A stretch of 34,604 bases of DNA from Synechococcales cyanobacterium bin31.maxbin.ball.101 (GTDB lineage Bacteria > Cyanobacteriota > Cyanobacteriia > Leptolyngbyales > Leptolyngbyaceae). This document shows, one piece after another, positions 18,056 to 21,196 of the stretch. The notes below the pieces were generated by a model. It was not told the origin of the DNA. It worked only from the letters and a program-made list of their open reading frames with translations, and ran no database searches. A program made the translations under genes and the position numbers. How positions within the stretch are numbered: the first letter of the stretch is position 1; each line of letters begins with the position of its first letter. Location of the stretch: positions 1 to 34,604 of the forward strand of contig JAAFJU010000038.1 of NCBI GenBank assembly GCA_013298165.1, written 5' to 3'.

Positions 18056-20863
18056 ATGTCCACCCTTGTCATCGTCGAATCTCCTACCAAAGCTAAAACC
18101 ATCCGAAACTACCTTCCAGCAGGGTTTCGGGTCGAAGCTTCCATGGGTCACATCCGGGACTTACCTCAGTCCACCTCAGATGTCCCGAAAGAAATTACCG
18201 ACAAGCGGGTTCGTGAACTAGGCGTCGATGTCTATGGGGACTTTGACCCGATTTATCTAATTCCTGACGACAAGAAAAAAGTCGTCAAAATGCTGAAGGA
18301 TGCGCTGAAAGAGGCTGACGAACTGCTTCTGGCGACGGACGAAGATCGCGAAGGCGAGAGCATTTCCTGGCATTTGCTACAGGTTCTGAAACCCAAAGTG
18401 CCCGTCAAGCGCATGGTGTTTCACGAGATTACCCAAGAAGCGATCCAGGCGGCGATCCTCGACTGCCGCGATGTGGATGATAAAGTCGTACGCGCTCAGG
18501 AAACTCGACGAATCCTCGATCGGCTCGTGGGTTACACCCTGTCTCCCCTGCTGTGGAAAAAAATTGCCTACGGACTCTCCGCAGGTCGGGTGCAGTCAGT
18601 AGCTGTCAAAGTTTTGGTCCGTCGAGAACGCGATCGGCAAGCCTTCAAACGGGGTTCTTACTGGGATCTCAAAGCCTTACTGGGCGTGACAGAAGGCACA
18701 GGCAAAACCGCGAAATTGATCCAGTTCGAAGCCAAAATGATGACCTTAGCGGGTCAAAAGTTGGCTACGGGAGCTGACTTCGACGAAAACACCGGACAGG
18801 TGGCTGAGGGTCGCAAGGTCGTGTTGCTCAACGAGGAGCAAGCCCGTGCCCTGCAGGCGCGCCTCGATGGCAAGCCCTGGACGGTGACAGACGTAGAAGA
18901 GCGTCCCGTCACCCGCAAGCCCTCTCCGCCCTTCACGACCTCCACCCTACAGCAGGAATCCAACCGGAAAATTGGTCTGTCCGCCCGCGACACCATGCGG
19001 ACCGCCCAGAGTTTGTACGAAAACGGCTATATCACCTATATGCGAACGGACTCCGTGCATCTGTCGCAGCAGGCGATCGAAGCCGCCCGTGAATGCGTCG
19101 AAGCCATGTATGGCGCAGACTACCTCAGTCCGCAACCTCGCCAGTACACCACCAAAGCCAAAGGTGCTCAGGAAGCCCACGAGGCCATTCGTCCCGCAGG
19201 CAGCACCTTCCGCACGCCCCAGCAGACGGGACTCTCAGGTCGTGAGTTTCAGCTTTACGACTTGATCTGGAAACGCACCGTCGCCACCCAAATGGCCGAA
19301 GCGCGTCAAACCCAGATTGCGGTGATTATTCAAGTGGAAGATGCAGGCTTCCGTGCCTCGGGGAAACGGATTGACTTCCCTGGATTTTTCCGGGCGTACG
19401 TCGAAGGATCGGACGATCCCGATGCGGCGATCGACAACCAAGAAGTGATCCTGCCGACCTTAGCGAGCGGCGATCATCCCGCTTGCCAAACCCTCGATGC
19501 GATCGGCCATGAAACCCAGCCCCCCGCCCGATTCACCGAAGCCTCCCTGGTCAAAACCTTGGAAAGCGAAGGCATTGGTAGACCGAGTACCTACGCCAGC
19601 ATCATTGGAACCATTATCGATCGGGGCTACGTCCAGCCTGCGGGCAACGCCCTTGTGCCCACTTTCACGGCTTTTGCTGTGACGACGCTTCTGGAAAACC
19701 ACTTCCCTGATTTGGTCGATACCGGATTTACGTCGAAGATGGAGCGCACCCTGGATGAGATTTCCACGGGCGAAGTTGAATGGTTGCCGTACTTGAAAAA
19801 CTTCTATTTGGGTGATTTGGGATTGGAGACCCAGGTTAAGGTGCGCGAAGGCGACATTGATCCCACTCAGGCGAAGACCGTTGAACTGGAAAATCTCGAC
19901 GCCAAAATCCGCATTGGTAAGTATGGCGCTTATTTGGAAATCGAACGCGAAGGCGAAACGATCAAAGCCAATATTCCCAAGGGTTTGACGCCTGCGGATC
20001 TAGATCCCCAGCAGGTGGAGCAACTGCTACGCCAAAAACTAGAAGGCCCGGATAAACTCGGTATTCATCCCGAAACCGGGGAAGCGATCTTTGTCCTCAA
20101 TGGCAACTATGGTCCCTACGTTCAACTCGGCGAGATTCCCGAAGATAGCAAAGTCAAACCCAAACGATCGTCTCTCCCCAAAGGAACCACACCCGAAAAT
20201 ATCACCCTTGAGCAAGCGATCGGATTGCTCACCTTGCCACGCACCTTGGGAATGCATCCGGAATCCGGCTGTAAAGTGCAAGCGAGTCTCGGACGTTTTG
20301 GTCCCTATGTCGTGCATGATCAAGGGAAAGTGGGCAAGGATTACCGATCGCTTAAGGGTGACGATGAACCTGTGACCATCACCCTAGAACGTGCGCTGGA
20401 ATTGCTCGCTCAACCGAAGGCGGTGCGTGGGAAACGATCGGTCACGCCATTGCGCGAAATGGGTCCCCACCCTGAGGATGAGGAACCCGTGAATCTCTAC
20501 GAGGGACCCTACGGTGTGTACATCAAACACGGTAAGGTCAATGCATCACTTCCAGAGGGCCAAACCCTGGAGACAGTGACGATGGAAATGGCCGTAGAAG
20601 CGCTGAATGCTAAAGCAGGAAGTGCGAAAAAAGGTGGTAAAAAAGCTGCTGCTAGCACTACTAAGAAGGCCGCTACTAAAACGACAACCAAGAAAACTAC
20701 TACCAAAAAAGAAACGGCAGCGGTAACAGCAGAACCCGCTGAAGCGACGCCCAAAAAAGCTGCTACTAAAAAAGCAACGACTAAGACGACCACCAAAACC
20801 ACAACTAAGACCAAAACCGCTGCGGCTAAAAAAGTGAGTGCAAAAACCAAAGCGACTGATTAG
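18056..20863 (+). CDS. topA: DNA topoisomerase I (type IA)
   Basis: Relaxes negative supercoils. The TOPRIM domain opens with TLVIVESPTKAKTI and carries DEDREGE (about 95-101). The strand-cleaving Tyr is Y328 in YITYMRTDS. After the core come four repeats ending in motifs such as GKYGAYLEI, GNYGPYVQLG, GRFGPYVV and GPYGVYIKHG, the non-zinc C-terminal repeats usual in cyanobacteria. From about residue 858 to 935 the protein is a Lys/Thr/Ala tail like histone H1, likely a DNA-binding segment. ATG at 18056. Length is 935 aa. Confidence 0.96.
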   Translation: MSTLVIVESPTKAKTIRNYLPAGFRVEASMGHIRDLPQSTSDVPKEITDKRVRELGVDVYGDFDPIYLIPDDKKKVVKMLKDALKEADELLLATDEDREGESISWHLLQVLKPKVPVKRMVFHEITQEAIQAAILDCRDVDDKVVRAQETRRILDRLVGYTLSPLLWKKIAYGLSAGRVQSVAVKVLVRRERDRQAFKRGSYWDLKALLGVTEGTGKTAKLIQFEAKMMTLAGQKLATGADFDENTGQVAEGRKVVLLNEEQARALQARLDGKPWTVTDVEERPVTRKPSPPFTTSTLQQESNRKIGLSARDTMRTAQSLYENGYITYMRTDSVHLSQQAIEAARECVEAMYGADYLSPQPRQYTTKAKGAQEAHEAIRPAGSTFRTPQQTGLSGREFQLYDLIWKRTVATQMAEARQTQIAVIIQVEDAGFRASGKRIDFPGFFRAYVEGSDDPDAAIDNQEVILPTLASGDHPACQTLDAIGHETQPPARFTEASLVKTLESEGIGRPSTYASIIGTIIDRGYVQPAGNALVPTFTAFAVTTLLENHFPDLVDTGFTSKMERTLDEISTGEVEWLPYLKNFYLGDLGLETQVKVREGDIDPTQAKTVELENLDAKIRIGKYGAYLEIEREGETIKANIPKGLTPADLDPQQVEQLLRQKLEGPDKLGIHPETGEAIFVLNGNYGPYVQLGEIPEDSKVKPKRSSLPKGTTPENITLEQAIGLLTLPRTLGMHPESGCKVQASLGRFGPYVVHDQGKVGKDYRSLKGDDEPVTITLERALELLAQPKAVRGKRSVTPLREMGPHPEDEEPVNLYEGPYGVYIKHGKVNASLPEGQTLETVTMEMAVEALNAKAGSAKKGGKKAAASTTKKAATKTTTKKTTTKKETAAVTAEPAEATPKKAATKKATTKTTTKTTTKTKTAAAKKVSAKTKATD

Positions 20864-20918
20864 GTGATTTCTACAAAAAGCTTTACCTGTCAGAGGCTTC
20901 GAGTCTCCGTTCCAGACC

Positions 20919-21196
20919 GTGCCGGAATGAATTCGGCACTCTTAGTGCGAAGTCAGTTGAAACTGACTGAAGAACACTGAATCACTCTTTCAGTCTACTT
21001 ACAGTAGACTTCGCCCTGAGAGCGCCAACTTCCAGTTCGGCGCGGATCTGGCAACGATCGACCAGATTGTTCCGGTAGAGGCTTTCTTAGAAATGACCTT
21101 AGTTGTCTGCGTTGGAAACAATCAACTAGTTAGGAATAAGGATTTAATAACACCCACAAATTCGCTCGGCGGGTGTTGTTAAATCCTCGTTCCTTA
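20919..21196 (+). ncRNA. Chain of hairpins: candidate TnpB/omega-RNA or MITE relic
   Basis: The 364-bp gap after topA is packed with complementary arms. GTGCCG/CGGCAC (20919-20939), GCACT/AGTGC (20936-20948), AGTCAGT/ACTGACT with loop TGAA (20951-20968), AGTCTACT/AGTAGACT (20992-21010), GCGAAGTC/GACTTCGC closing over these (20947-20954 with 21007-21014), GCGCC-AAC/GTT-GGCGC (21022-21043), ATCTGG/CCAGAT (21046-21067), and a hairpin of about 21 bp at 21133-21195. Some stems are mutually exclusive. Known knowledge: TnpB omega-RNAs are such structured scaffolds at an IS605/IS607 end. The link to them is inference; a MITE or other RNA is possible. The direction is assumed. Confidence 0.5.
21131..21196. 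repeat. Long imperfect inverted repeat (transposon-end-like hairpin)
   Basis: The arm at 21131-21156 (containing GGATTTAATAACACCC) pairs with 21171-21196 (containing GGGTGTTGTTAAATCC) over about 21 positions around a 14-nt loop. On the plus strand two mismatches become G-U pairs and one A-C remains. No T-run follows, so a simple terminator is less likely than the folded end of an IS200/IS605-type element or the 3' stem of an RNA. Confidence 0.7.

Follow-up and report, generated by a model that had tools for sequence, protein, structure and literature searches.

The hairpin-rich DNA that follows topA in the analysed stretch (34,604 nt; hereafter, the window) is a copy of a gene-less mobile element, not the relic of a TnpB guide RNA that a first-pass annotation had suggested. 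The element is very probably a composite, non-autonomous one, in which a REPIN-like core of units of the Y1 transposase (subclass 1.2) type lies inside transposon ends. The 278-nt segment originally singled out joins two unrelated features, namely the element (20863-21098), which starts 56 bp upstream of the start given earlier and whose end was placed at 21098 by alignment of the genomic copies, and a single-copy hairpin at about 21131-21195 (Table 1).

Table 1. Features of the element downstream of topA and of the adjacent hairpin, in window coordinates
Feature	Position	Strand	Observation
Left target-site duplication, TTA	20860..20862		Bases 20861-20862 also begin the topA stop codon; TTA identical at both ends
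Non-autonomous mobile element, REPIN-like core in MITE ends	20863..21098		236 bp; one of 19 near-full-length core copies
Left terminal inverted repeat, type A, GGTGATTTCTACAAAAAGCTTTACC	20863..20887	+	17 ends in genome; reversed-pattern control 0
Left unit, hairpin A	20919..20939	+	Two pairs with compensatory changes among the copies
Left unit, hairpin B (AGTCAGTTGAAACTGACT), preceded by GCGA	20951..20968	+	Three pairs with compensatory changes
Spacer between the two inverted units	20969..20991		Alignment; the corresponding units of Phormidesmis (L065) enclose a Y1 gene
Right unit, hairpin B, inverted	20992..21010	-	R2 model match 20986-21046, minus strand, E = 0.0018; covariation among copies
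Right unit, hairpin A, inverted	21022..21043	-	GCGCGGAT overlaps its 3' arm; R2 match and covariation
8-bp long-range complementarity, GCGAAGTC / GACTTCGC	20947..21014		Conserved CGAAG of both inverted units; pairs nearly invariant, without covariation support
Right terminal inverted repeat, type A	21074..21098	-	End-pattern match 21074-21101, minus strand, 1 mismatch
Right target-site duplication, TTA	21099..21101		Identical to left flank; all six complete type-A copies flank-matched
Separate long hairpin, outside the element	21131..21195		Folds on both strands; no second genomic copy

The dense hairpins reported for this segment are genuine. The 278 nt fold at -106 kcal/mol compared with -71.5 +/- 5.1 for shuffles (z = -6.74), the opposite strand folds equally well (z = -7.22), and the stems lie where they had been placed (GCGAAGTC at 20947-20954, GACTTCGC at 21007-21014, and GCGCGGAT at 21040-21047). 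The proposed structure of at least seven pairs with a terminal hairpin holds for its stems and fails as one feature, as the terminal hairpin is separate and single-copy; one single 280-bp structure was ruled out by the copies, which stop at 21098. The separate hairpin is located between the convergent topA and an alpha/beta-hydrolase-like gene and probably acts as a bidirectional terminator; no T-run terminator was called at 21131-21195.

A search of the window's own draft genome (5.39 Mb, 356 contigs) recovered 19 dispersed near-full-length copies of the core, all of them intergenic and none within any ORF of 120 aa or more, and one fragment. The copies anticipated by the first-pass annotation thus exist, ending at 21098 instead of 21196, and its secondary suggestion of a MITE was borne out by terminal inverted repeats, a 3-bp duplication, a lack of coding capacity, and the many copies. 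Read from sequence, these copies, repeats, and duplications would mark the element as mobile. A search of plasmid records for the element and an exact-pattern search of genome contigs returned no match. In this genome the core occurs within at least three types of outer repeat (A, B, and C). Type A, represented by GGTGATTTC (TIR GGTGATTTCYA...), is a 25-bp imperfect repeat accompanied by a 3-bp TWA duplication; the window element opens with GGTGATTTCTA, carries an imperfect inverted copy at its other end, and has TTA on either side. Matching 3-bp flanks were found in all six complete type-A copies (TTA/TTA in three, TAA/TAA in three). Each of the 17 type-A ends of the genome is part of a copy that has a core, and a control search with the reversed pattern gave 0, so it is the composite that multiplied. 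The search turned up no autonomous partner for the type-A ends in this draft genome.

Type B (CAGCAATTCCAAATTC) shows 9-bp duplications in its best copies (perfect in L012, one mismatch in L018), and type C (CTGATTGACTGACACA) has no clear duplication. A 650-bp transposase remnant (L143, G000:C206:9078-9730) is bounded by type-B ends (CAGCAATT...AAATTC), and its only Pfam match, DDE_Tnp_1_assoc, falls below the cut-off of that model, hinting, at the level of sequence similarity, at an ISAs1-like source. Type-B ends also stand beside other, unrelated-looking REP-like double hairpins at L147 (G000:C327:2659) and L148 (G000:C346:16416), which suggests that this end enclosed more than one hairpin family. 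Among the core copies, L013 (G000:C354:11455-11592) has the inner part between GCGAAGTC and GACTTCGC inverted relative to the outer hairpins, and L004 and L012 have the hairpin B loop TTCA, not TGAA, as would result from the flipping of hairpins in situ.

The core (about 20914-21047) is made of two inverted copies of a two-hairpin unit, an arrangement that produces both the local and the long-range stems; the two strands fold alike. It is near-palindromic, and its copies are found in both orientations. The alignment of 17 genomic cores (A1) revealed two-sided changes in 9 of 38 pairs, with 98.8% of cells paired, whereas pairing reached at most 37.6% in the slid-partner control, every slid version being lower. 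Long-range pairing of the two halves was considered as a conserved fold and rejected, since the covariation lies within the hairpins and the long-range stems are nearly invariant and hence uninformative.

At the insertion site, the topA stop codon TAG (20861-20863) is shared between duplication and element, its TA coming from the end of the TTA and its G being the element's first base. With the element and one copy of TTA removed, the sequence is GACTGATTAGTTG and the stop codon is still TAG; the codon was retained because the element end starts with G. The element would be one that landed on the topA stop codon and kept its TAG. In two congeners, topA ends in TAG with no element at the site, and the core was not found in either of these two genomes. 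Four of the six complete type-A copies (the window copy L001, L004, L005, and L006) are placed precisely at the stop codon of an adjacent long frame; a TWA target followed by G keeps an in-frame stop codon, for which target preference and survival bias are both possible.

The core is also present in relatives, as detected by BLAST (G009, E = 4e-17) and by a covariance model of this genome's copies, which gave as many as 80 matches in a single genome of the family, where a palindromic copy counts once per strand. There it lies inside yet other inverted repeats, for example TTAACTGAGATCTTGCACC, CTAAGAGGATGTTTGAAAAGT, and TATAGCTGAATGTCACTGA, and some copies have no significant outer repeat. This variety of unrelated outer inverted repeats around the core, both here and in relatives, suggests that REPIN-like cores were enclosed in MITE ends more than once.

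Units of the same kind surround Y1 transposase genes. The best Y1_Tnp ORF of the window's genome (L021, on contig C333) is truncated and has inverted two-hairpin units on both flanks; a third hairpin unit, at about 1719-1778, occupies the place where the C-terminal half of the gene should be, and may have truncated it. In a relative matching Phormidesmis priestleyi BC1401 (G007, locus L065), a complete Y1 gene of 142 aa lies between inverted units of the window-core type, with its stop codon inside hairpin B, and the covariance model built only from the window genome's copies matches both of its flanks. The left hairpin B of the window core occupies the same place as hairpin B of the Y1-flanking units. 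The NCBIfam models placed the Phormidesmis protein above the cut-off as IS200/IS605 and at 28 bits against a cut-off of 80 bits for the REP-associated model, and its relatives of solved structure are IS200-type transposases (e.g., ISHp608). Six related Y1 proteins (alignment A2) have Y---Q--HH in common, with invariant Y114, Q118, H121, H122, and H53/H55 (Y motif and HUH motif). As Y---Q--HH is the signature of TnpA_Y1 subclass 1.2 (PMC6006769), the unit-flanked proteins would be assigned to this subclass. Among 42 family genomes, at least 13 core matches were detected in 8 of the 11 with a close Y1 gene or remnant vs 3 of the 31 without, so that a close Y1 gene or remnant went with more core copies (p = 1.8e-4, without correction for kinship).

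A wider set of 80 loci with relatives of the Y1 gene, drawn from named genomes, yielded 77 usable loci. A locus was counted as flanked when its two 400-bp flanks shared an inverted repeat with a score above 40; by this measure, inverted repeats flank 52 of these 77 relatives compared with 1 of 19 other Y1 genes, which were taken from the window's family (p = 6e-7). The sole control gene with a strong flanking inverted repeat is L128 (G042:C2:13046-13309; score 74). Chloroflexi and other groups also have relatives of the Y1 gene, and L194, L195, L197, L198, and L202 (Chloroflexi, Nitrospirae) have strong direct flank repeats instead of strong inverted ones, so the arrangement may differ there. 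A common plan was recognised in 57 units from Y1 flanks, consisting of hairpin A, a GCTA-N6-CRA linker, and hairpin B; GCTA is invariant in the alignment of 33 unit sequences. Both results are conditional on the search pattern, which itself required a CTA linker. The unit model R2 was built from Y1-flanking units and included nothing from this genome; it holds only hairpin B as pairs because the underlying unit alignment (A3) is not structure-aware. R2 matches the units on either side of L021, the decayed Y1 ORF of this genome (E about 1e-13), and both arms, in inverted orientation, of several other element copies, whereas its match to the window copy is modest (right arm, E = 0.0018).

Some observations count against the composite explanation. 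The target duplication is short (3 bp), type-A ends have no autonomous partner among the sequences of this draft genome, and R2 did not match the left arm of the window copy. GCTA, which never varies among the aligned Y1-flanking units, is missing from the window linkers. In addition, three genomes have many core copies and no close Y1 gene, and one (G041) has a close Y1 gene and no core matches.

Under the composite explanation, the hairpins most likely work as structures of single-stranded DNA, not as RNA, and would be recognised and cut by a Y---Q--HH Y1 transposase when replication exposes the DNA. This expectation rests on analogy with IS200/IS605 elements and TnpA_REP, from which the Y1 enzyme would be predicted to recognise such units as hairpins in single-stranded DNA and to cut beside them. 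The window copy itself most likely arrived through a DDE-type transposase acting in trans on the outer ends, an assignment made because Y1 enzymes are not known to generate terminal inverted repeats or a target duplication. We also lean, though only slightly, towards a broader proposal: that Y---Q--HH Y1 transposases (subclass 1.2) and a distinctive two-hairpin unit (hairpin A, GCTA-N6-CRA, hairpin B) together make up a REPtron-like system, widespread in Cyanobacteria and present in some further phyla, whose REPIN-like cores have been captured repeatedly by unrelated types of ends and spread even where their own transposase decayed.

Other explanations account for part of these data. The element could be an ordinary MITE of a DDE insertion sequence, with inner hairpins of its own that merely resemble Y1-flanking units, which would agree with the terminal inverted repeats, the matching 3-bp flanks, the absence of coding capacity, and the fact that type-A ends never occur without the core. 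However, this genome and its relatives also carry the same core within outer repeats of other, unrelated kinds, and the core flanks Y1 genes in inverted orientation, making this explanation unlikely. A functional non-coding RNA or mRNA-processing element at many gene ends, for which mobility would be history only, is less likely again: its strong fold and covariation, and intergenic copies of which several lie exactly at stop codons, have to be set against two strands that fold equally well, a near-palindromic sequence copied in both orientations, the lack of an Rfam match, and its absence from two congeners.

The TnpB/IscB guide-RNA relic can be set aside almost entirely. Besides the dense stems, what speaks for it is kinship with the IS200/IS605 superfamily, and this runs through TnpA, not TnpB; the original hunch therefore pointed to the right superfamily and to the wrong enzyme, the Y1 transposase TnpA taking the place of TnpB. 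Nothing in the window matched Rfam at the gathering score, and a relaxed search gave chance-level matches only. The segment GCGCGGAT, which the first-pass annotation had likened to conserved parts of Cas12k tracrRNAs, falls partly on the 3' arm of hairpin A in the right unit. The stop-free frame of 71 codons exists, but 185 of 1000 shuffles contained one as long, and a frame of such chance length lends no weight to a tnpB 3' end overlapping an omega-RNA. Moreover, no meaningful similarity was detected around the three tnpB genes of this genome, beside which copies had been looked for, and the copies end at 21098.

A literature search by sequence string gave nothing relevant among the matches listed. 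In the openly readable literature, no description was found of the two-hairpin unit as the partner of subclass 1.2 or of the repeated enclosure of a two-hairpin core in different transposon ends; an earlier account of the repeats is possible. REPINs, MITEs, and subclass 1.2 proteins are kinds already known. If the composite explanation is true, two kinds of mobile DNA have merged here, and the window holds a mobile element in place of the supposed guide RNA.

As regards the ends, the window element resembles MITEs in being 236 bp long, gene-less, intergenic, and multicopy, with terminal inverted repeats and a target duplication, but it differs from them in its interior, a REPIN-like pair, and in that no autonomous type-A partner was found; the cyanobacterial Nezha (cited in PMC3733652) is a named example, alike at the level of the MITE class. 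As regards the core, it shares with the REPIN/BIME elements of TnpA_REP (RAYT) two inverted palindromic units that are dispersed and intergenic (PMC3116915, PMC6006769), and, as in REPtrons, the same unit flanks a Y1/HUH gene (Phormidesmis L065, both flanks), with related units beside L021. It differs from REPINs in having two hairpins per unit instead of one, and in that the window copy has terminal inverted repeats and a target duplication. The GTAG-type tetranucleotide at the hairpin foot of REPINs and REPtrons is absent from the window linkers; in Nostoc-type units, GTAG stands beside hairpin A on the opposite strand (from GCTAC). The linked protein also has Y---Q--HH, not the Y---NP of RAYT class 2, and reaches 28 vs 80 bits with the REP-associated model. 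Elements of the IS200/IS605 type have in common with the present system the Y1 transposase family and hairpins near their ends. They are, however, without terminal inverted repeats and target duplication, which the window element has, and the units here are inverted and dispersed without a gene.

With respect to subclass 1.2, the unit-flanked proteins agree in the Y---Q--HH signature and in their occurrence mainly in Cyanobacteria (PMC6006769). Quentin et al. (2018) described this subclass as generally without terminal secondary structures (PMC6006769), whereas inverted repeats flank 52 of the 77 relatives in the present survey, and matches reach Chloroflexi and others. If true, the two-hairpin unit would provide a concrete DNA substrate for a transposase subclass described as lacking one, with a chemistry that is directly testable. 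REP dimers inside longer palindromes were reported in Anabaena variabilis and H. neapolitanus, without REP-free palindromes being found, and the longer palindrome was treated as the target in that 2013 survey (PMC3733652). These palindromes resemble the window element in that each encloses a central REP pair, but the matching flanks observed here suggest a pair of transposon ends, not a target; the absence of REP-free palindromes (PMC3733652) fits a repeated merging of core and ends, and an enclosing transposon end pair would, if the composite explanation is true, supply a mechanism for this puzzle.
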